Below are positions 4,502 through 16,356 of a DNA stretch of 16,754 nucleotides, one piece after another. The notes under the pieces are model-generated. The model searched no databases. It saw nothing but the letters and a program-made list of their open reading frames with translations, and was not told the DNA's origin. Position 1 is the first letter of the stretch. Each line of letters starts with the position of its first letter. The position numbers and the translations under genes are program-made. The DNA is from an uncultured Brachyspira sp. (GTDB taxonomy: Bacteria > Spirochaetota > Brachyspiria > Brachyspirales > Brachyspiraceae). The DNA is taken from assembly GCA_934725525.1 (NCBI GenBank), contig CAKVCG010000022.1, positions 1-16,754 on the forward strand, given 5' to 3'.

Positions 4502-4720
4502 TCAATCTTTATCATTCTTACTTATGATTTTAGAAATTCTATAAAGTCTATATATGCCTGAAATGAAACCGAAGAACATTCCGATTATAAGAAATAGGGG
4601 GGAGCTGTTTAACTTTTTATCAATATAGTAACCTACTAAACCGAGACCCAATATCATGCTGGCAAATTCGATGCCAAGAGAGGCATATTTTATACCGTTT
4701 TTTAAATCTTTATTTTCCAT
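4502..4720 (-). CDS. Small membrane protein of the AtpZ/AtpI family
   Basis: This 72-residue protein has two predicted transmembrane helices (about residues 14-32 and 41-60) separated by the YYIDKKLNSSPLFLIIGMFFG segment. That segment fits the D...k...sp...liG..lG pattern of AtpZ/AtpI (F-ATPase gene-1/AtpI-like) proteins. Family members assist assembly or cation supply of F-type ATP synthase rotors. The start codon lies inside the end of the upstream LytM-like gene (11-nt overlap), and its TGA stop touches the pncB ribosome binding site. It is therefore translated from a polycistronic message, away from any visible ATP synthase genes. It is the only gene in the window that plainly ends in TGA. 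Family assignment rests on a short sequence. Confidence 0.7.
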   Translation of the reverse strand: MENKDLKNGIKYASLGIEFASMILGLGLVGYYIDKKLNSSPLFLIIGMFFGFISGIYRLYRISKIISKNDKD

Positions 4721-6983: not shown

Positions 6984-7247
6984 ATGTCTAAAATATTAGT
7001 TGAATTTATAAATACTTGTCCTACCTGCGACAGTTATTCGGAGTATTTAAATGAACTTCAAAAAACATACGAGGATAAAATGGAATTAAGAATATATTAT
7101 GCTGGTAAAGATTTTGATTATATACAAAAATATGGAATTATAGATAGAGGAACATTAATAATAAACGGAAAAAATAGATACGAAATTTTAAATAAAAAAC
7201 TTATAGAAAAAGAAATAAAAGCGGCTATAGAAAATATAAATAATTAG
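6984..7247 (+). CDS. saoT: Thioredoxin-like protein SaoT (Cys form)
   Basis: This is an 87-residue thioredoxin/glutaredoxin-fold protein without signal peptide, hence cytoplasmic. It has the redox motif C12-P-T-C15 after the first beta strand (ILVEFINTCPTCDSY), followed by helix, strand (ELRIYYAG) and a GTLIINGK segment typical of the minimal fold. It is the first gene of the cluster and has an AAGGA site 6 nt before the ATG. It matches what I recall as SaoT, a thioredoxin-like (seleno)protein of the SAO system in which one active-site Cys may be selenocysteine. Here both are Cys codons. Its likely role is thiol/selenol redox service or metal transfer for the other Sao proteins. saoE begins 7 nt after its stop. 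Confidence 0.8.
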   Translation: MSKILVEFINTCPTCDSYSEYLNELQKTYEDKMELRIYYAGKDFDYIQKYGIIDRGTLIINGKNRYEILNKKLIEKEIKAAIENINN

Positions 7248-7254
7248 GTAAAAT

Positions 7255-8346
7255 ATGGTTATGCATTTTTTATATGTATTTTGGGACTTTCTTGTTATAA
7301 GTTCAGAGTGGATAATAATCAGTTTAATTTTATCTGGAATAATACATGCCTTCATAAAACCTCAAAAACTTCAGAAGCAAATAGGAAATAAAAAAATATC
7401 GTCTATTATAAAAACTACGATATCGGGCTGTTTATTACCTATATGCAGTTGCGGAGTTCTTCCTCTTGCTTTAAGTATATATAGAACGGGAGCGTATTTG
7501 GGACCGACTTTATCATTTCTTGTGGCGACTCCTATAATAAATCCAGCGGCTATAATAATGGCTTTCGCTATGCTTGGCAAGGAAATTGCAATTATATATG
7601 TTATATGCGGAGTATCAATTCCAATAATAATAGGAATACTAGGAAATTTATTTGGCGGAGAGGAGTTAATATCGAAAGAAGTTTTGAAATTGCAAGATAT
7701 GAATATCGAAATACCCGAAAATAATTATATTGATAAAACTAAATGGTATAAAAAGTTATATTATGGCATTATTTGGGGATTCAATACGCTTGGTATAGAA
7801 ATAAGCAGGTTTATATTGGTAGGAACTTTTTTAGGAACATTATTAATAATTGTAATACCTCAATCTTTTGTAATGCAATATTTAAGCAATCCAAGACTTG
7901 TGTCTATTGTAGGAATAACAGCCATAGGATGTATAATGTATGTATGCGCGTTAGGACATATTCCTTTTATAGCGGCTTTAATATCTGCTGGAGCTTCGCC
8001 TGGCATAGCAATAACATTTTTAATAACGGGAGTTGCAACGAATATATCGGAATTGATTAGCATATATAAACTTATAGGCAAGAGAAGTTTATTGATATAT
8101 ATTTTATCTATGCTTTTCTTTGGAATATCTATAGGATATATAACGAATATTTTATTATTTGACAATTTTACTCCAATATTTAATTTGTCAAACGCAAAAA
8201 GACAAATAGAGATAGCTAATAATATAAATATAATTTTTCCCGTATGGTTTAAAAATATATGCGCCTTTGCCGTTTTATTTATGGGTATTTATTCTTGGTT
8301 TATAGTTGTAAAGAATAAATTAAAAAGTATTAGAGGAAATATATAA
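7255..8346 (+). CDS. saoE: SaoE: ArsP/DUF318-type permease, probable metal(loid) efflux
   Basis: This 363-residue polytopic membrane protein has roughly eight hydrophobic segments arranged as two homologous halves. The first half contains the signature of the ArsP/YraQ (DUF318) permeases, GCLLPICSCGVLP (58-70), followed by FLVATPIINPAAI (88-100). The second half contains YVCALGHIPFIAALISAGAS with Cys226 and Cys231, followed by FLITGVATN. Characterised ArsP proteins export trivalent organoarsenicals, so export of metal or organometal product through the inner membrane fits. It corresponds to the SaoE efflux component as I remember it. A nearby in-frame ATG (7261) could be an alternative start. 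The gene is tightly packed: 7 nt after saoT, and its TAA is immediately followed by the saoC ATG. Confidence 0.85.
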   Translation: MVMHFLYVFWDFLVISSEWIIISLILSGIIHAFIKPQKLQKQIGNKKISSIIKTTISGCLLPICSCGVLPLALSIYRTGAYLGPTLSFLVATPIINPAAIIMAFAMLGKEIAIIYVICGVSIPIIIGILGNLFGGEELISKEVLKLQDMNIEIPENNYIDKTKWYKKLYYGIIWGFNTLGIEISRFILVGTFLGTLLIIVIPQSFVMQYLSNPRLVSIVGITAIGCIMYVCALGHIPFIAALISAGASPGIAITFLITGVATNISELISIYKLIGKRSLLIYILSMLFFGISIGYITNILLFDNFTPIFNLSNAKRQIEIANNINIIFPVWFKNICAFAVLFMGIYSWFIVVKNKLKSIRGNI

Positions 8347-8799
8347 ATGAGAAATCTATTATTTATAATATTAGGCATATTTATTGTGTGTTGCAAATAT
8401 AATAATAAAAACAATAAAGAGAATTTGGATGGCATAAAAAATATAGAATTATATAAAGAATATTTGAATAAGTATAACGATAAAGAAATATTAACTTTTT
8501 TAGAAGGAGATTTTAGCGGAGATAATATATCAGATTTAATTATTATATACAGAGAATCGAATAATTCAAATAAATTAATAGGAATATATACGGATGAAAA
8601 AGGAAAAATACTTATAACAAATCCTATACCTGCGCCTATAGAAAACTATATTATTAAATTCTACAATATAGACGAAATTGAACCTTGCGAGTTTTTGGTT
8701 TCGGGACAGAAAGGAGCTAATATAGGTTTTGCGGTATATAGACTTGAAAACGGAGAGTTTATTAGTTTATTTGAAAGCGGAATGGAGAGATGTTGCTAA
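8347..8799 (+). CDS. saoC: SaoC: lipoprotein ending in Cys-Cys-COOH
   Basis: This 150-residue protein has a short signal peptide and a probable lipobox around IFIVCC (Cys15/16), so it is likely membrane-anchored outside the cytoplasm. The body is Asn/Lys-rich near the anchor and then has a beta-rich domain with an EF-hand-like calcium-loop look (FLEGDFSGDNISDLIIIY, about 56-73), as in VCBS/FG-GAP-like repeats. The striking feature is the C-terminus, GMERCC followed directly by TAA. This agrees with the family I recall as the Cys-Cys-COOH (seleno)protein SaoC, in which a terminal Cys may be Sec. A C-terminal vicinal Cys pair is well suited to bind or hand over soft metals (compare the flexible Cys-Cys tail of MerA). 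The ATG abuts the saoE stop, with AGAGGA about 9 nt upstream. Confidence 0.8.
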   Translation: MRNLLFIILGIFIVCCKYNNKNNKENLDGIKNIELYKEYLNKYNDKEILTFLEGDFSGDNISDLIIIYRESNNSNKLIGIYTDEKGKILITNPIPAPIENYIIKFYNIDEIEPCEFLVSGQKGANIGFAVYRLENGEFISLFESGMERCC

Positions 8800-8868
8800 T
8801 AATTTGCATATTTATAAATAAGTATGTAATTATAATAAAAAATAATTTTTATAAAAAGGAGATTTAAA

Positions 8869-10074
8869 ATGACACTTTTAAAAAGAAAATTTTGGGAAGT
8901 CCAAAGAGTTTTCGCAGTTTTAACGATTGCATTATTTAGTATTTTTGCAATCGTATCATGCGCAAAAGAAGAAGGCGGTAGCGAAAATGCTATTCCGCAA
9001 GATGTTCAAAGTTTGGTTTCGGGATATAATCTTGAGCCTTTAAGTAAAGAAGATAGCGATTATGTTATCAATTTGGGTTATTATGATTGCGACCATATGA
9101 CTGCGGCTTGCGTTGGAGAAGATACGGGAATATTTAAGGCTTTGGGCTTAAAAGTATCCGTTACGGGAAACGGTAATGTTCCCGAAGCTATGAGCGCGGG
9201 AAAAATGGATATAGCCTACGCTTCGTTTAGGACGACTTTAAATGCCGTAAAAAATAAAGTTCCGCTCTTTATAGCGGCTGAAAATCATACGGGAGGAGCG
9301 GAATATTTTGTCGTAGCTAAAAATATAGATAATCCTCAAGATTTATTAGGCAAAAGAATTTCTATGGGGGCTAATGCCGAAACGGAGAATTTAAATTGGG
9401 CTGAATGGAGCGCAGATTTGAATATTCCGAGAGATACAAAATATTATGAAAATTTTTCAATGAGCGATTCCGATTCTTATTTTGCTTTTAAGTTGGGAAA
9501 GTTGGACGGTTATGGAGCTTGCGACCCTTGGGGTTCTATGGCAGAATATGAAGATACGGGAAAAATATTAGTAAGACAAAATACCGACAGAGAGATAGAC
9601 GGACATGGCACTTGTTGTAAAATATGTATGAATTATAATTTTGCAAAAGCTCATCCTAAATTAGCCGAAAGAATATTGCTTGCTCATGCTATATCCGTAG
9701 AATATATGTATTTGCATCCGTATAAAGCCGCCGAGATATTCGCAAAAAATTATAATGTTCCTTTAGAAGTAGGGCTTATGACTTTATGGAAAAAATTAAA
9801 CGAAGAAGGCAGAACTATTACATGGAAATTAAATAGAGAGTATGTTTATAATCAAATGAAAACAATGAGACGATTAGGAGTGAGAAACGATATTAATCAG
9901 TTAAATATAGACGATTACATTGATTTATCATATTTTAACAACTCTGGCGCTAAAGACTTCGATAAATTTATAGAAGAAGAAGTTAACCCAATATTTCCTT
10001 TAGGTATGAGTTATGAAGAATGGAGATCAAAAGCGGTTGAGATAGATGATATAGTTGAAAAAACTGGAGTTTAA
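8869..10074 (+). CDS. saoX: SaoX: Cys-rich ABC transporter substrate-binding lipoprotein
   Basis: This 401-residue substrate-binding protein is of the NrtA/SsuA/TauA (NMT1-like) type. The lipoprotein signal ends in AIVSC (Cys31). The family pattern is seen in VINLGYYDCDHMTAACVGEDTGIFKALGLKV (about 66-96), then VPEAMSAGKMDIAYASF (104-120), and later EYFVVAKN...DLLGKRISMG. Nitrate and sulfonate binders do not have the six extra cysteines found here: Cys74, Cys81, Cys218 and the cluster Cys249-Cys250-xx-Cys253. This suggests a thiophilic ligand such as an organomercury or other organometal cation. It has a strong AAGGAG site. A 69-bp gap separates it from saoC. It pairs with SaoB as a second binding component for the SaoP/SaoA importer. 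Confidence 0.85.
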   Translation: MTLLKRKFWEVQRVFAVLTIALFSIFAIVSCAKEEGGSENAIPQDVQSLVSGYNLEPLSKEDSDYVINLGYYDCDHMTAACVGEDTGIFKALGLKVSVTGNGNVPEAMSAGKMDIAYASFRTTLNAVKNKVPLFIAAENHTGGAEYFVVAKNIDNPQDLLGKRISMGANAETENLNWAEWSADLNIPRDTKYYENFSMSDSDSYFAFKLGKLDGYGACDPWGSMAEYEDTGKILVRQNTDREIDGHGTCCKICMNYNFAKAHPKLAERILLAHAISVEYMYLHPYKAAEIFAKNYNVPLEVGLMTLWKKLNEEGRTITWKLNREYVYNQMKTMRRLGVRNDINQLNIDDYIDLSYFNNSGAKDFDKFIEEEVNPIFPLGMSYEEWRSKAVEIDDIVEKTGV

Positions 10075-10135
10075 ATAAACTATTAAATTTACAAAAATTA
10101 TAAAATTAAAATATTAAAAAACAGGAGATTAAATT

Positions 10136-10969
10136 ATGAGACACTTAAAAAACATTATTATTGTTATATCGCTAATTATTATGGTCGTTATAATTAACGG
10201 TTTCAATAAAAAAAGCGATTCTGAAAATTTAAAAATAGCTTCAAATATTAATACTAATAAGATAGTTATAGCTTGCGGAACGGACGCTTCTGGTATGTTG
10301 ATGTCCTATATATTAAAAAATAAAAATGCAAATATAGAATTGTCTAATTTCGATTATACCGAGCTTATGGATTGTTGCGGCGCTCAAGCCGAATTTGCGT
10401 TTATGTCAGGTAAAGTCGATATGGCGGTTCTTTGCCCAGATGCATCCGCAAAATTTTTGGGAGTGGACACTAATTATTTTATTGTAGATTCTATAGTCCG
10501 AGGCTCTAATATACTGGTTTATTTTGACGAAAGTTATGAAAATGTAGACCCTAAAAATATAGGATATATGAATAAAAGATTATTGCAAGAATCTATTTTA
10601 AAATCCGTATATCCTAATGCGTCTTACTATCCAATGCTTTCTACCGCTTTGCCTTACGCGTTGGCAAAAAAAGAAGTTGACGCCATATTTACCGATATAA
10701 TTTTGGCTTTAAAAATTAAAAACGCTAAATTTAAAATGATAAATACGGATAAAGTAGATTATTATTTAGTAGCTTCAAAAAAATTAAAAGGCTCAGATAC
10801 GCTTAATAATTTTATTAAAGCTTATAATAACGCCGTTGACGATATTCAAAACGATAATATTTTATCGGATATGATAGGAAGCTATTTGAGTATTTCGGAT
10901 TCTAAAGGAGAAACTGATATATGGAAGAAAATGAAAGTTCGATTCAACAAAATAAAAACAGAACTATAA
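10136..10969 (+). CDS. saoB: SaoB: second ABC substrate-binding protein with vicinal Cys pair
   Basis: This 277-residue protein has an N-terminal hydrophobic segment (about 6-22) that serves as signal or anchor. It lacks a lipobox Cys, unlike SaoX. The mature region resembles a short NMT1/periplasmic binding fold: KIVIACGTDASGMLMSYIL (42-60), LMDCCGAQAEFAFMSGKVDMAVLCPDAS (78-104) and YALAKKEVDAIFTDIILALKI. Cysteines at 47, 80, 81 and 100 lie at the expected ligand cleft, with Cys80-Cys81 the key pair. I recall SaoB as an ABC transporter substrate-binding (seleno)protein whose pair can contain Sec; both are Cys codons here. The gene has an AGGAG site and overlaps saoP by 49 nt, which implies coupled translation. 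Confidence 0.8.
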   Translation: MRHLKNIIIVISLIIMVVIINGFNKKSDSENLKIASNINTNKIVIACGTDASGMLMSYILKNKNANIELSNFDYTELMDCCGAQAEFAFMSGKVDMAVLCPDASAKFLGVDTNYFIVDSIVRGSNILVYFDESYENVDPKNIGYMNKRLLQESILKSVYPNASYYPMLSTALPYALAKKEVDAIFTDIILALKIKNAKFKMINTDKVDYYLVASKKLKGSDTLNNFIKAYNNAVDDIQNDNILSDMIGSYLSISDSKGETDIWKKMKVRFNKIKTEL

Positions 10970-11736
10970 ATTTGGGAAATGCGGGCGGCAGCCCTTTAAT
11001 GAAATTATACAGTTTTTCCGTATTGATTCTCATTATGATTGTATGGTTTTTTCTCGCTAAAAAAATAGATAATAATCTTTTGCTTCCAGATTTTATATTA
11101 ATGTGCAAAGAATTTTTTCGCTCTTGGATTGACCCTGCGACAGTTAGTAATTTATTAATAACTTTGAATAGAGTTTTTAAAGGATTTATTATAAGTTGTA
11201 TTATAGGGCTTCCTTTAGGACTTATAATGGGATATTCAAAGCGAATGCTACTTGCAATATCGCCCGTTATAAATTCTATTAGGCAGATACCAATAATGGC
11301 TTGGGTTCCTTTATCTATAGTGTGGTTTGGACTTGGAGACGGTCCGACAATATTCTTAATAACAATGAGCGCTATATTTCCGCTTATAATAAATACTATA
11401 GACGGAGTTAGAGGCATAGATGTTAATTATATTAATTCGGCAAGAAGTATGGGAGCTAATAATATGAATATAATGATAGATATTATACTTCCTGGGGCAT
11501 TGCCTTCTTTTTTGACGGGATGCAGACTTGCTTTAGGGTTAGGTTGGATGAGCGTTATATGCGCCGAATTTATAGCTACAAGCAAAGGATTTGGATTTAT
11601 ATTAATCGAAGCTCAGCAGAGACTTGAAACGCCAAGATTATACGCTCTTATGATAATATCGGCTATTATAGGATTTACTATGGATAGAATACTTCTGTTT
11701 ATAGAAAAAATACTTACTTCATGGAGATTTAAATAG
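10921..11736 (+). CDS. saoP: SaoP: ABC transporter permease subunit
   Basis: This 271-residue inner membrane permease is of the BPD_transp_1 family, SsuC/TauC/NrtB-like, with about six transmembrane segments. The cytoplasmic EAA-type loop that docks the ATPase is visible as SARSMGANNMNIMIDIILPGALPSFLTG, and the AWVPLSIVWFGLGDGPTIFLI segment is typical of SsuC-type permeases. The start at 10921 lies inside saoB. It is supported by an AAAGGAG site 10 nt upstream within the saoB coding sequence. An internal Met 26 codons later would give a more typical, shorter N-terminus but lacks that signal. Together with SaoA and the two binding proteins it should form an importer. Confidence 0.9.
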   Translation: MEENESSIQQNKNRTINLGNAGGSPLMKLYSFSVLILIMIVWFFLAKKIDNNLLLPDFILMCKEFFRSWIDPATVSNLLITLNRVFKGFIISCIIGLPLGLIMGYSKRMLLAISPVINSIRQIPIMAWVPLSIVWFGLGDGPTIFLITMSAIFPLIINTIDGVRGIDVNYINSARSMGANNMNIMIDIILPGALPSFLTGCRLALGLGWMSVICAEFIATSKGFGFILIEAQQRLETPRLYALMIISAIIGFTMDRILLFIEKILTSWRFK

Positions 11737-11747
11737 GAAATTGATAT

Positions 11748-12518
11748 ATGGCTATTCTTAAAGTTGATAATGTAAGCAAATCTTTTAAATCTAAAAAATC
11801 TCAAAATGTGGAAGTATTAAAGAATATTAGTTTTGAAATAGAAAAAGGCGAATTCGTGACTTTGCTCGGTCCTTCGGGATGCGGTAAAACAACATTGCTT
11901 ACTATGATAGGAGGTTTTCAGCAAGCCACTTCGGGTAATATTTATCTTGAAAATAAAATAATAATAGAACCTTCTTCGGAAAGAGGCTATGTGTTTCAGA
12001 ATTACGCTTTATTTCCTTGGATGACCGTAGCTAAAAATATACTCTATTCTTTAAAATTTAAAAAAATGACTAAAGAAGAAAAGAAAAATAGATTAAAAGA
12101 ATTATTAAATATGTCTCACCTTAACGGGCATGAGGATAAATATCCAATATCTTTATCGGGAGGAATGCAACAAAGAGTCGCAGTAGTTAGGGCTTTAGCG
12201 TCTAATCCTAAAATATTATTACTTGACGAACCGCTTGGAGCTATAGATTTGCAATTAAGAGAGCATATGCAAAATGAATTATTATCTTTAGTGAAAAGCG
12301 GAGACAATACGGTTTTAATGGTGACGCATGATGTTTCCGAAGCCGTATATTTGAGCGACAGAGTTATAATTATGAGTTCAAATAAAGGCTCTATATTGGC
12401 GGATATAAAAATAAATATGAATCATCCGAGAGATAGGGAAAGCAAAGAATATTTAGAATATATTATTGAACTTACAAATAATTTAAAAAAAGCTTTTTCA
12501 AAAAAAGTTATGGATTAA
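11748..12518 (+). CDS. saoA: SaoA: ABC transporter ATP-binding protein
   Basis: This 256-residue ATPase of the SsuB/TauB/NrtD subgroup energises the SaoP channel from the cytoplasmic side. All nucleotide-binding motifs are intact: Walker A GPSGCGKTT (41-49), Q-loop YVFQNYALFPW (81-91), ABC signature LSGGM (136-140), Walker B ILLLDEP (156-162) and the H-loop histidine His194 in MVTHDVSEA. It starts 11 bp after saoP with an AGGA site. A 56-bp gap with AAAGGAG leads to saoD. Confidence 0.92.
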   Translation: MAILKVDNVSKSFKSKKSQNVEVLKNISFEIEKGEFVTLLGPSGCGKTTLLTMIGGFQQATSGNIYLENKIIIEPSSERGYVFQNYALFPWMTVAKNILYSLKFKKMTKEEKKNRLKELLNMSHLNGHEDKYPISLSGGMQQRVAVVRALASNPKILLLDEPLGAIDLQLREHMQNELLSLVKSGDNTVLMVTHDVSEAVYLSDRVIIMSSNKGSILADIKINMNHPRDRESKEYLEYIIELTNNLKKAFSKKVMD

Positions 12519-12574
12519 ATATCGTTTGTTCTTTTAATATAGATAATTTAATTTTAAACAAAGGAGAATAAAAA

Positions 12575-12907
12575 ATGAAAGTAGCTTATGTATTTACAAG
12601 CAAGAATTCGCATTTAATTTTGGATAAGATGATTATTCCTCAATTATTAAGCGACAAGCATGGAGCGGATGTAGTGGGAATGATGTTTTTTGCAGATAAC
12701 ACATTCTTACTTACAAAGGGAAGTAATGTAGGCGATAGATTGCAGGAAGTATTAAAAAAGAAAAAAATACTTCTGATGGCATGCAATATATGCGCTATAG
12801 AAAGAGGTATTCATGAAAAGCTAATAGATGGTGCATGTATAGGATGTTTTCCAGATTTATATAAGGCTTTGGACGGAAGCGGAGTAGAACAAGTTATAAC
12901 TTTATAA
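12575..12907 (+). CDS. saoD: SaoD: DsrE-related protein with two CxxC motifs
   Basis: This 110-residue soluble protein has the DsrE/TusD-like alpha/beta fold pattern: an initial beta strand KVAYVFTSK, an amphipathic helix, then GADVVGMMFFADNTFLL, and a short VLKKKKILLMACNICAIERGI segment. DsrE-family proteins relay persulfide sulfur through a conserved Cys; here the Cys content is raised to two CxxC pairs, Cys70-xx-Cys73 and Cys88-xx-Cys91. This fits transient metal binding or a sulfur/selenium relay. It corresponds to SaoD as I recall it. It has an excellent AAAGGAG site and ends 10 bp before saoL. The biochemical role is not established by sequence. Confidence 0.8.
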   Translation: MKVAYVFTSKNSHLILDKMIIPQLLSDKHGADVVGMMFFADNTFLLTKGSNVGDRLQEVLKKKKILLMACNICAIERGIHEKLIDGACIGCFPDLYKALDGSGVEQVITL

Positions 12908-12917
12908 GGATTTTATT

Positions 12918-13520
12918 ATGTCTGATTTTGGAATATCCGATAAATATCAAAATATATCTAAAGAATTGCAAGAAGCGAGATTAAGGCTTATTGATTTTGT
13001 AATTGAGACGGGGCTTCCCGTTAATAAAAATGAAGCCATAAAAATTTGCGGAAATGAATCTCTATATAAAGAGTTATTAGAAAAAGAGATTATAACCGCC
13101 AACGGAGACGATATTGCATTCTTGTATCCCGTATCGGCGCAGGAAACTAATCATAGAGTAAAATTAAGCGATGGACGAGAATTTTTTTCTATGTGCGCTA
13201 TAGATTCTTTGGGAGCTTATAGTTTGTTTCATAAGGATGTTGAAATTAATTCTATATGTAGCAATACAGGAAATAAGATATATATTAAAATCAAAGATAG
13301 AAAAATATTTGAGCATTACCCAAACGATATTCATGTTATTCATGTAGATTTAAATAAGAATAAGAATTGGGCAAGCACTTGCTGAAATATTATGAATTTC
13401 TTTGGTTCAAAGAATGATATGAATGAATGGATTAAAAATCAAAATCTTAATAACGACACTATTTTTCTTTTAGATTTGAATACGGCTTTTGAAGTTGCAA
13501 CCGCTATATTTAAATTATAA
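12918..13520 (+). CDS. saoL: SaoL: MerB-like organometal lyase, probable selenoprotein (Sec at codon 156, in-frame TGA 13383-13385)
   Basis: SaoL is a homologue of organomercurial lyase MerB, which protonolyses carbon-mercury bonds in the cytoplasm. Residues 88-98 (EFFSMCAIDSL) match the MerB active-site motif: Cys93 and Asp96 correspond to MerB Cys96 and Asp99, and Cys114 in ICSNTG matches Cys117. A conventional reading stops after residue 155 (NWASTC) at TGA and would lack the second catalytic Cys and the C-terminal fold. The same frame continues for 44 codons, with NIMNFFGSKNDMNEW resembling the MerB segment after Cys159 (HVHFFAS...W), then LLDLNTAFEVA, to TAA at 13518-13520. The full length is 200 residues, close to MerB's roughly 212. 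Ungapped alignment places the TGA at catalytic Cys159, next to Cys155. A SECIS-like hairpin follows. A premature stop or a sequencing error is the alternative. Confidence 0.82.
13398..13414 (+). promoter_or_regulatory. Candidate bacterial SECIS element in saoL
   Basis: TTCTTT (13398-13403) and AAAGAA (13409-13414) form a perfect stem closing the apical loop GGTTC; G13404 can also pair with C13408. The loop begins with GG, 18 nt after the TGA, which is the same distance and GGU phase as in the E. coli fdhF SECIS. T13397 can be bulged below the stem, with A13396 pairing T13415. These features fit the general bSECIS rules (stem, small loop with a G in its first two bases, 16-37 nt after UGA). 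Binding by SelB is inferred. Confidence 0.75.
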
Positions 13521-13542
13521 AGATTATAAAGCAAGAAAAATA

Positions 13543-13574
13543 AAAAGAGCTTTATTATAATATAAAGCTCTTTT
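13543..13574. terminator. Bidirectional terminator between saoL and metQ
   Basis: A perfect 13-bp inverted repeat (AAAAGAGCTTTAT at 13543-13555 and its complement at 13562-13574) with a 6-nt loop has A-run and T-run flanks. It can thus stop transcription from both the + strand sao cluster and the convergent - strand metQ. It starts 22 bp beyond the TAA at 13518-13520, which supports that TAA, not the earlier TGA, as the true end of saoL. Confidence 0.85.
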
Positions 13575-13604
13575 CAAAAATATTATTTTTTATTTCAAAA
13601 AATT

Positions 13605-14441
13605 TTACTTCCAAGTAGGCAAATAAGAACCTTTGAAATTATTGGCGTAAACTTCTTCGACAATATCAGATTGATAAGCCTCGATTACTTTTTTATATAG
13701 CTCGTTGTCTTTGTCTTTAGTTCTTGCCGCTATCAAATTAACGAACGATTTTCCGCTATAAATAGCGGGGTCGTCTTTAAATATATAATCCGAACCAGGA
13801 TTCAAATCAAAATCTATAGCGTAATTTCCGTTTATAACCGCGCATGCCACATCTGGTAGCAAACTATATATACTGCCAGCGTCAATTTCGACTATATCCA
13901 AATCTAGCGGATTTTCTATTATGTCGGATACGCTCGGAGTATCTCCCGCTTCTGGACGAACTTTTATAAGTCCCGCCGCTTCCAATACTTTTAAAGCTCT
14001 TCCTCCGTTTGAAGGGTCGTTAGGAATCGCAACTTTATCTCTTCTTTTAACCTCGCTTACATTTGAGATTTTTTGAGAGTAGATATTCATTGCCGATATA
14101 TAAGTGTCCGCTATTGCGACTAAATCGTAGCCTTTATTTGACACTTCATCGTTAAAGTAGGCGTAATGCTGAAAAGCGTTCAAATCTATCTCTCCGTCAT
14201 TTAAAGCCTGATTCGGAATAGTATAATCGGAGAAAGTATATAATTCTACCGTTATTCCTTCGTTGGATAATTTTGAAACTATAGGATTCCAAATTTGATA
14301 ATCCGAATCTCCTGCAAAACCCACTCTAACTACTTTATTTCCTCCGCTACTTGAAGAAGAACCCTCGCCGCATGATACGACTGCAAAAATCGTGAAAATC
14401 ATAATTAATGCAACCGCTAAAATGTTTAAAACTTTTTTCAT
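13605..14441 (-). CDS. metQ: Methionine-binding lipoprotein MetQ (NlpA family)
   Basis: This 278-residue substrate-binding lipoprotein belongs to the MetNIQ methionine importer. The signal peptide ends in the lipobox FAVVSC (Cys24), followed by a Ser/Gly-rich tether. The mature part carries NlpA-family motifs: VRVGFAGDSDYQIWNPI, NAFQHYAYFND (a highly conserved QH.Y segment), RRDKVAIPNDPSNGGRALKVLEAAGLIKVR, the DLDIVEIDAG segment and CAVINGNYA. A strong AAGGAG site and a candidate promoter of its own lie upstream. It is downstream of metN and metI on the same strand, so it may be transcribed both with them and alone, as is common for the abundant binding component. Confidence 0.93.
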   Translation of the reverse strand: MKKVLNILAVALIMIFTIFAVVSCGEGSSSSSGGNKVVRVGFAGDSDYQIWNPIVSKLSNEGITVELYTFSDYTIPNQALNDGEIDLNAFQHYAYFNDEVSNKGYDLVAIADTYISAMNIYSQKISNVSEVKRRDKVAIPNDPSNGGRALKVLEAAGLIKVRPEAGDTPSVSDIIENPLDLDIVEIDAGSIYSLLPDVACAVINGNYAIDFDLNPGSDYIFKDDPAIYSGKSFVNLIAARTKDKDNELYKKVIEAYQSDIVEEVYANNFKGSYLPTWK

Positions 14442-14497
14442 TTTTAATTACTCCTTTTTTAGTTTTTATAATTTTTTTATTTAAAAATTTGAATTCA

Positions 14498-14525
14498 ATT
14501 ATATATTATAAATATAAAATTACAA
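14498..14525 (-). promoter_or_regulatory. Candidate internal promoter for metQ
   Basis: On the - strand TTGTAA (14525-14520) and TATAAT (14503-14498) are spaced by 16 bp in the 151-bp gap between metI and metQ. The rest of the gap is AT-rich with no other feature visible. Confidence 0.4.
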
Positions 14526-14592
14526 ATACTAATTTTTAAATTTTTATGTTTTGATTATTATGTATTTGAATCTAATTTATGATTTTCATGAA

Positions 14593-15273
14593 TTAATGGG
14601 ACGCTTTTTTGACTATAAAATTTCCTATAGCCTGTATTATTCCAACCAATATTACCAAAAGTATAACCGACACATATATTATATCCAATTTATTTCTATA
14701 ATATCCCGATTGAATCGCGTAAGTTCCGAGTCCGCCCGCGCCAACCGCTCCAGCCATCGCTGTTAAACTTATCAAACTTATCGCAGTAATAGTAGTTCCT
14801 CTCGCTATTGGAGCTACGCTTTCTTTCAAATATACTCTAAAAATTATTGCGATTGGAGAAGAACCCATCGACTGCGCCGCTTCTATCAATCCTGAATCTA
14901 CTTCCGATAAAGCGCTTTCCATCTGCCTTGCAAAAAACGGGACAGTTCCAAATATTAAAGGAATTATTGCTCCTTTCACGCCGATTGCCGTTCCCATAAT
15001 GAATCTTGTCAAAGGCACGAGCATCGCAAGAAGAATTATAAAAGGAATAGCCCTGAAAAAATTGATAACTTTGCTTAATACTTCGTATATTATCGCGTTT
15101 TCGAGTATTCCGTATTTTTTTGTGACTACCAAAAGTATTCCGAAGAAACCGCCTATAAAAAACGATATTACTCCCGATTGTATAAGCATTATAAAAGTTT
15201 GAATTATGCTGTCGTAAAGTTTTGGCAAATCGCTCATAACATTTGGAATTAATTTATTTAATATTTCTTGCAT
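14593..15273 (-). CDS. metI: Methionine ABC transporter permease MetI
   Basis: This 226-residue inner membrane permease is of the MetI type with five predicted transmembrane helices. It shows the conserved EAA loop EAAQSMGSSPIAIIFRVYLKES that contacts MetN, the FFRAIPFIILL segment, GAIIPLIFGTVPFFARQMESAL, and AMAGAVGAGGLGTYAIQSGY near the C-terminus, all characteristic of the family. The length is typical. Its start overlaps the end of metN by 20 nt, so the two are translationally coupled. It forms the MetNI channel for D- and L-methionine uptake. Confidence 0.95.
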   Translation of the reverse strand: MQEILNKLIPNVMSDLPKLYDSIIQTFIMLIQSGVISFFIGGFFGILLVVTKKYGILENAIIYEVLSKVINFFRAIPFIILLAMLVPLTRFIMGTAIGVKGAIIPLIFGTVPFFARQMESALSEVDSGLIEAAQSMGSSPIAIIFRVYLKESVAPIARGTTITAISLISLTAMAGAVGAGGLGTYAIQSGYYRNKLDIIYVSVILLVILVGIIQAIGNFIVKKASH

Positions 15274-16306
15274 CTAATATTACCTCCACATCAATATTTT
15301 TTTCTTGTAAAAACATAATCGCTTTTTTTATTCCGTCTTTTTCAAGTTCATGCATTATCACCACCAAGCCCCCCAAATGGCTGTCGTCTACCACTTCCAC
15401 ATTGGCAAAAATAATATTAATGTCAACATTATACTCTCTTGAAATATGCGAAACCATAGGCTCGACTACATTTCCTTTTTTATATCTTAAACGAACTATG
15501 CATTCGTTCGGTTTAAGTTTTGTTAGCTCGTCTTTTTCTTCCACTAAAGAATATATTTTTGAAACATTGGAAGTCGTGTCTATAAAATCTTTCGTTATTT
15601 GATTTTTTGGAGCGGAAAATACATCGAAAATGTTTCCTTCTTCGATTAAAACTCCCTTATTCATAACGGCGACTCTATGGCATAATTCTTTAACGACATT
15701 CATTTCATGCGTTATAACGACAATAGTAAGCCCCAAAGTTTCGTTTAATTTTTTTAATAATTTTAATATCGAGCTTGTAGTTTGAGGGTCGAGCGCGCTT
15801 GTAGCTTCATCGCATAAAAGTATATTCGGTTCGTTGGCGAGCGCTCTTGCAATTGCTACTCTCTGCTTTTGTCCGCCGCTTAATTGCGAAGGATAGGCAA
15901 ACGCTTTTTCTTTTATATCCACAAGTTCGAGCAAAGACATAACTTTTTTTTCGATTTCTTTTTTGGGTAAACCTCCGTATCTTAAAGGATAGGCTACATT
16001 TTTAAATACCGTCCTTGAAGCGAACAAATTAAACTGCTGAAATATCATTCCTATTTTTTTTCTTTTTTCTCTTAACTGACTATTTGATAAAGAAGTCATT
16101 TCAACATCGTCAATATAAACATGCCCCGAAGTCGGACGCTCCAAAAGATTAATGCATCTAACGAGAGTCGATTTACCCGCTCCAGAAAAACCTATTATGC
16201 CGTAGATAGAACCGGTTTCTATTTTTAGCGAAACATCGTTTACGGCGTTTAATTTTTTATTATTTTCGGTAGTAAAGATTTTGCTGACATTTTTTAAAAT
16301 AATCAT
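15254..16306 (-). CDS. metN: Methionine ABC transporter ATP-binding protein MetN
   Basis: This 350-residue ATPase powers methionine import. From the ATG at 16306 the domains are an ABC ATPase (1-240) with Walker A GFSGAGKST (39-47), signature LSGGQ (142-146), Walker B ILLCDE (162-167) and His200, followed by a C-terminal NIL/ACT-like regulatory domain (about 265-350) that in characterised MetN binds methionine and inhibits transport. A TTG at 16336 in the same frame would add 10 residues (MYLKYKVKIK) that resemble nothing in the family. It lies between promoter and ATG without a ribosome binding site, so I rejected it. metN is first in the metN-metI-metQ operon. Confidence 0.95.
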   Translation of the reverse strand: MIILKNVSKIFTTENNKKLNAVNDVSLKIETGSIYGIIGFSGAGKSTLVRCINLLERPTSGHVYIDDVEMTSLSNSQLREKRKKIGMIFQQFNLFASRTVFKNVAYPLRYGGLPKKEIEKKVMSLLELVDIKEKAFAYPSQLSGGQKQRVAIARALANEPNILLCDEATSALDPQTTSSILKLLKKLNETLGLTIVVITHEMNVVKELCHRVAVMNKGVLIEEGNIFDVFSAPKNQITKDFIDTTSNVSKIYSLVEEKDELTKLKPNECIVRLRYKKGNVVEPMVSHISREYNVDINIIFANVEVVDDSHLGGLVVIMHELEKDGIKKAIMFLQEKNIDVEVILDARNIK

Positions 16307-16356
16307 TTTTATTTTAACTTTATATTTTAGATACAATTTTTATTTTTTGAGAATGA

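Follow-up and report, generated by a model that had tools for sequence, protein, structure and literature searches.

The saoL gene and its reading frame

The window analyzed here is a stretch of 16,754 nucleotides from an uncultured Brachyspira sp. (contig CAKVCG010000022.1), and the gene in question is saoL, whose product resembles the lyase MerB and is predicted to carry selenocysteine (Sec) at residue 156. saoL is the last of a nine-gene run, saoT-E-C-X-B-P-A-D-L (6984-13520). Its frame runs from an ATG at 12918 through 155 codons to an in-frame TGA (13383-13385), and from there through 44 further codons to a TAA (13518-13520). These coordinates agree with an earlier note on this DNA, which had described a conventional stop after 155 residues and a product of 200 on translation of the TGA, and had proposed that the TGA replaces the second catalytic cysteine of a MerB-like lyase.

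SaoL scored 179.7 bits against the NCBIfam model NF040728, above the curated cut-off of 140. The model has 159 positions and its match stops at residue 155, the Cys preceding the TGA. The CU motif of the family is present as TGC TGA (13380-13385). Two MerB models, NF009710 and NF033555, align past the TGA to residue 197, both under their cut-offs (65.4 bits against 193 and 58.5 bits against 200), and SaoL is not classed as MerB proper.

Register with MerB and predicted fold

The catalytic residues of MerB are Cys96, Asp99 and Cys159. The first two are matched by Cys93 and Asp96 of SaoL, while Cys114 presumably corresponds to MerB Cys117 (Table 1). In ungapped phmmer alignments the counterpart of residue 156 is Cys159 in MerB C160S (3f2g) and, in MerB2 (5c17), the single Cys at that position. 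SaoL was also aligned by MAFFT with 57 MerB-like outgroup proteins, a non-neutral sample picked out by scanning for two peptide patterns of SaoL. Column 155 is Cys in 49 of them. The comparison of column 156, put forward in the earlier note as a check, returned TGA in the saoL genes and Cys in 56 of the 57 proteins, with a gap in the remaining one. The predicted structure of SaoL has the MerB fold across the full length of the protein.

Conservation of the TGA and selection behind it

Every one of the 44 saoL genes examined, that of the window among them, has TGA in column 156. TAA or TAG never stands there, and no Cys form was seen among these genes. Within the family, saoL was found in 11 of 29 genomes, each with the TGA; the named carriers are B. 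pilosicoli, B. innocens (type strain included), B. alvinipulli, Brachyspira sp. G79 and three metagenome bins. The nearest genome compared (G001, same genus) has 20% of the window's sampled words. In the order containing G030, the genome that carries locus L034, saoL was found in 28 of 393 genomes, with TGA in 28/28. This Clostridia survey sampled a larger order; its query rows had Cys in column 156, and it would miss any Cys form whose match is weaker than E 1e-10. The saoL genes of L035-L037 likewise have the TGA. A sequencing error at 13383-13385 is ruled out by the 43 other genes with the identical codon.

The same TGA and an equal downstream length of 44 codons recur in 10 Brachyspira relatives. 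Relative to the window, their post-TGA regions differ by 3-14.2 nonsynonymous changes (about 108 sites) and 3-13.3 synonymous changes (about 24 sites). The resulting ratio of nonsynonymous to synonymous rates (dN/dS), 0.10-0.34, indicates purifying selection. Because the TGA and the 44-codon length are kept under selection in these 10 relatives, the open frame is not a product of chance.

Two saoL genes have broken frames. In L038 (a Mediannikoviicoccus vaginalis record) the TGA and the downstream motif are frame-shifted relative to the first part of the gene, an error or a pseudogene. In B. alvinipulli (G002; L106, L033:10001-10610), the eleventh Brachyspira relative, a 10-base tandem duplication containing the TGA throws the downstream codons out of frame, an assembly error or a pseudogene.

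A candidate SECIS hairpin

A candidate bacterial selenocysteine insertion sequence (bSECIS) lies just downstream of the TGA (Table 1). Its 6 bp stem, its loop GGUUC and the 18 nt between TGA and loop fall within the constraints given in the excerpted text of the review PMC13188914 (loop 3-9 nt, stem 4-16 bp, G within the first two loop positions, UGA-to-loop distance 16-37 nt). In an alignment of 43 sequences, 34 of them distinct (L106 was omitted for its duplication), columns 16-21 pair with columns 27-32, counting the T of TGA as 1. In this register 97.5% of cells pair, as against 54-82% in slid versions. Changes on both sides of a pair amount to 13 cells in two pairs, a value reached by 0/500 shuffles, although relatedness inflates the measure.

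The clearest covariation is at column 21/27, where Brachyspira and L034 (L122) have TTT with TCA. Among the other 27 Clostridia, 26 have TTC with ACG or AAG and L149 has TTC with TCT; in the four loci of Peptoniphilaceae type TTT goes with GAT, and the pairing register is shifted. The Thr codon in the hairpin is ACG in 23/23 cases, a codon that accounts for 49/631 Thr codons elsewhere (long open reading frames (ORFs), 25 of these loci). Among 11 Brachyspira sequences, synonymous variation is reduced at codons 160-166 (1/7 sites, compared with 73/90 at codons 1-155 and 13/18 at codons 169-200; Fisher p 0.0008). Brachyspira loops read GGUUC or GGGUC and those of Clostridia mostly UGGAC or UGUAC, at a UGA-loop distance of 18 nt. 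Synonymous recodings were made for 6 of the 43 sequences, with window codon usage applied to the Firmicutes sequences too. As stable as the window were 3.4% of recoded whole folds and 1.1% of recoded hairpin regions; for L034, L099 and L105 the range was 0-2.1%.

Selenocysteine machinery in related genomes

selA and selD scored above cut-off in 11/11 saoL-bearing Brachyspira genomes (controls, 1/14 and 2/14), and selB and the selenocysteine tRNA in 27/29 genomes of the family, including all 11 with saoL (controls, 2/14 and 5/14). In G001 the tRNA, with anticodon TCA, precedes selA and selB. GrdA with one in-frame TGA was found in 9 of the 11 saoL-bearing genomes. selA was also present in 5/5 genomes of L034-L038. 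Predicted Sec use in Brachyspira is itself on record, in the excerpts consulted of PMC2897892 and PMC5330540, for GrdA/GrdB and 'redox-active disulfide protein 2'; SaoL has predicted Sec use in common with these proteins and differs from them in family.

Assignment of residue 156

Several observations weigh against reading the TGA as the Sec of a MerB-like lyase. The placement of the TGA at MerB Cys159, as claimed in the earlier note, holds in the two ungapped alignments and fails with wild-type MerB (1s6l), whose alignment is gapped by HMMER and sets residue 156 on C160, not C159. The search for Sec machinery that the note had proposed was run on relatives, where it was positive, and from their genomes the window organism would be expected to possess it. 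Taken alone, the window hairpin is ordinary against dinucleotide shuffles (z -0.41; 58/200 equally stable), with z from -2.33 to +0.59 in the 7 of 43 sequences that were folded. L035 and L036 are no better than their synonymous recodings (27-56% as stable). Of five hairpin pair measures, two are not above shuffles, namely pairs changed on both sides (2, matched by 107/500) and further pair types (5, matched by 500/500), and relatedness inflates the remaining ones. The innermost position is unpaired in 4/34 distinct sequences. Post-TGA regions of GrdA within the genus form weak folds of another kind, which leaves the hairpin without a positive control. No Rfam family matches the hairpin: none reached the gathering score in the window, and the matches at 13300-13600 are weak and unrelated. 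Lastly, the literature searched yielded no biochemical evidence on the substrate or catalysis of SaoL.

Nevertheless, the invariant TGA, the Cys of the outgroups, the Sec machinery of relatives, their GrdA with an in-frame TGA and the covarying hairpin together support the selenoprotein interpretation, and residue 156 of SaoL is very probably Sec.

The sao operon and its other Sec sites

All nine sao proteins score above their curated NCBIfam cut-offs (Table 1). SaoE has a further match, below cut-off, to a Cu/Zn exporter model. saoP begins within saoB, the two genes sharing 49 bases (10921-10969).

Table 1. Features of the sao region in the window
Feature	Position	Strand	Remarks
saoT, thioredoxin-like	6984..7247	+	Cys12 here; TGA at the site in 24/29 Firmicutes saoT found
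saoE, efflux transporter	7255..8346	+	NCBIfam match
saoC, Cys-Cys-COOH protein	8347..8799	+	CC here; Cys-TGA in 4/29 Firmicutes saoC found
saoX, ABC (ATP-binding cassette) substrate-binding protein	8869..10074	+	NCBIfam match
saoB, ABC substrate-binding protein	10136..10969	+	Cys80-Cys81 here; Cys-TGA in 28/29 Firmicutes saoB found
saoP, ABC permease	10921..11736	+	Cys214 here; TGA in 31/31 Firmicutes saoP found
saoA, ABC ATPase	11748..12518	+	NCBIfam match
saoD, DsrE-related protein	12575..12907	+	NCBIfam match
saoL	12918..13520	+	200 residues if TGA is Sec (155 + U + 44); NF040728 match
Cys93 (MerB Cys96)	13194..13196	+	Cys in 15/15 SaoL and 57/57 MerB-like rows
Asp96 (MerB Asp99)	13203..13205	+	Asp in 15/15 SaoL and 55/57 MerB-like rows
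Cys114	13257..13259	+	Cys in 15/15 SaoL and 5/57 MerB-like rows
Cys155, C of the CU motif	13380..13382	+	TGC here; TGT/TGC precedes TGA across saoL genes examined
TGA codon, predicted Sec156	13383..13385	+	Column of MerB Cys159
Candidate bSECIS hairpin	13398..13414	+	Arms 13398-13403 and 13409-13414; loop 13404-13408 (GGUUC)
Terminator-like hairpin between saoL and convergent metQ	13541..13576		Scored on the minus strand only

The Sec sites were compared with those of 32 Firmicutes loci. SaoT12, SaoB81 and SaoP214 are Cys in 12/12 Brachyspira operons each (the window and 11 others), and the SaoC C-terminus is CC in the same 12/12 and in 25/29 Firmicutes. Outside the counts of Table 1, four Firmicutes SaoT have TGA at site 14; the single Cys cases of SaoT and SaoB in Firmicutes both belong to L171, a mixed operon. 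The SaoL site is the sole one of the five compared that has TGA in every gene seen and never Cys. The SaoX Sec site named in the excerpted text of PMC13188914 was not located in these operons.

In a tree of SaoP, SaoA and SaoX (43 rows, midpoint root) Brachyspira is one clade (100/100). Because the root is a midpoint, the tree does not decide whether Cys or Sec is ancestral in SaoT, SaoB and SaoP. With Brachyspira a single clade, the Sec sites offer one or two evolutionary contrasts rather than 12, and independent Cys/Sec changes are few: that of the Brachyspira clade and that of the mixed Firmicutes operon.

Some operons depart from the common layout. The saoT genes with TGA at site 14 are in the Clostridia operons L152, L157, L161 and L164, two codons further on, with Cys at site 12. 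Three Brachyspira operons, L102, L103 and L104 (one of them from B. pilosicoli), gave no saoD in tblastn (E 1e-4) but contain the other eight sao genes. L167 and L168 have reduced sets in which X, P, A, D and L were found and T, E, C and B were not found in the stretch examined; L167 reaches the contig end.

Predicted function and alternative explanations

Taken as a whole, the evidence makes it likely that the TGA encodes Sec156 of a 200-residue protein with a predicted MerB fold that would cleave carbon-metal bonds. As judged from sequence, SaoL is probably a lyase acting on an organometal. In the proposed mechanism the mRNA hairpin, with its loop 18 nt downstream of the UGA, would bring in SelB and its Sec-tRNA for Sec insertion. 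The organometal would be bound through its metal by Cys93 and Sec156 and cleaved at the carbon-metal bond by a proton from Asp96, following the MerB scheme. The selenolate would be a stronger nucleophile towards mercury, as the earlier note had suggested. SaoX, SaoB, SaoP and SaoA may import the substrate, and the bare metal may exit via the thiol proteins SaoT, SaoC and SaoD and then the exporter SaoE.

An alternative would place SaoL, still as a selenoprotein, in selenium or methyl-selenium metabolism, with a substrate other than a heavy-metal organyl. An orphan saoL with TGA (L162:9510-10040, G038), near which no other sao gene was found within about 9.5 kb, has as neighbors over cut-off the genes for an acyl-CoA dehydratase activase and a double-cubane-cluster reductase, and as neighbors under cut-off those for XdhA-like and MocA-like proteins. 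In PMC10418091, as far as its excerpted text goes, a figure legend on selenium genes in mlp clusters names sao genes and the double-cubane protein is tied provisionally to selenium metabolism. Yet this is a single orphan locus, the MerB triad positions are retained, and the operon carries the efflux gene saoE with its under-cut-off match to the Cu/Zn exporter model. A role in selenium metabolism is accordingly regarded as unlikely.

It is very improbable that the TGA is an ordinary stop, the functional SaoL having 155 residues and the 44 codons being a fossil of a longer ancestor. Full-length SaoL is absent from the 21 database relatives, 20 of which have 155-162 residues and one 121. Homologs ending near residue 155 had been named in the earlier note as grounds for rejecting its proposal; nominally they do so end, but these lengths are conventional translations, and the underlying DNA was read for a subset of genomes. 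They bear out the note's other expectation, that automated annotation truncates the gene. The NF040728 model also finishes at the Cys before the TGA, and TGA does end one window ORF (4502-4720). Against an ordinary stop are the purifying selection (dN/dS 0.05-0.34) on 44 open codons of constant length and the use of TGA in every saoL gene, never TAA or TAG, though one of these two codons closes 15 of the 16 window genes counted (the sixteenth is saoL; three further ORFs were excluded). A 155-residue form would, moreover, lose the last 45 residues, including the counterpart of Cys159 and, in the predicted structure, two helices and a strand. saoL is thus a clean example of a gene cut by automated annotation with loss of the counterpart of a catalytic residue.

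Readthrough with a residue other than Sec, such as Trp or Cys, is barely conceivable: readthrough as such is strongly supported, but the Sec machinery and the GrdA with in-frame TGA in relatives, the fit of the conserved hairpin to the bacterial SECIS model and the Cys of the outgroups argue against it, and wholesale reassignment of TGA is ruled out, since the codon also terminates saoL in G001 and ORF 4502-4720.

Relation to published systems

SaoL has already been published as a selenoprotein, and the window gene adds a member. In the excerpted text of PMC13188914, SaoL is listed with NF040728 and the motif CU, with Haft and Gwadz 2023 as the source, and an SAO operon is described that has six selenoprotein genes. 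The window gene resembles this published SaoL in its family match over cut-off, its CU motif with TGA and its partners saoTECXBPAD. In contrast to the published operon, that of Brachyspira has TGA at SaoL alone of the five sites compared, and this single-Sec form is what the present case adds. Neither SaoL in Brachyspira nor a single-Sec SAO operon was found in the literature searched; either may be in print, as subscription papers lay mostly outside the search. The main text of PMC2398784, cited by the review for SaoL, does not contain the words MerB, alkylmercury, mercury or lyase, and that of the deep-Sep paper (PMC12013277) does not mention Sao, MerB or Brachyspira. MerB (NF009710, NF033555; 3f2g, 5c17) is similar in its predicted full-length fold, the Cys93/Asp96 positions and the Cys159 column. 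It differs from SaoL in that SaoL has a TGA, predicted as Sec, for Cys159, scores below both MerB cut-offs and is encoded behind ABC-transport and efflux genes.

Since SaoT, SaoB and SaoP mostly have TGA in Firmicutes but Cys in 12/12 Brachyspira operons, the sequences suggest that it is the lyase selenolate that is indispensable. A spirochaete SAO with one TGA of five sites would tell the site where selenium is required apart from those where it is not, and the question of why SAO uses selenium becomes a testable one on one residue of one enzyme. It may tentatively be suggested, with more doubt than confidence, that SaoL is an obligate selenoenzyme beyond cysteine MerB chemistry, that Brachyspira has a minimal one-Sec SAO, and that the substrate lies beyond the MerB range, as an organometal or organometalloid. 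Such a reading would explain the invariant TGA of SaoL alongside Cys at the SaoT, SaoB, SaoP and SaoC sites of Brachyspira.

Flanking genes and distribution

The convergent terminator that the earlier note had placed past the TAA is matched in position by a terminator-like hairpin starting 20 bases beyond it, which the scan reports on the minus strand only. metQ, metI and metN (13605-16336) converge on saoL and have a methionine-type ABC transporter as best matches, under cut-offs. A sao-metNIQ link was considered and set aside: part of metQ stands behind saoL in G001 and was not found in 7 named Brachyspira loci (E 1e-20). No saoL match was found among 50,697 phage records. In plasmids 78 records matched, all below 60% identity, and the 20 of them listed were MerB/alkylmercury-lyase genes, one of them unannotated.
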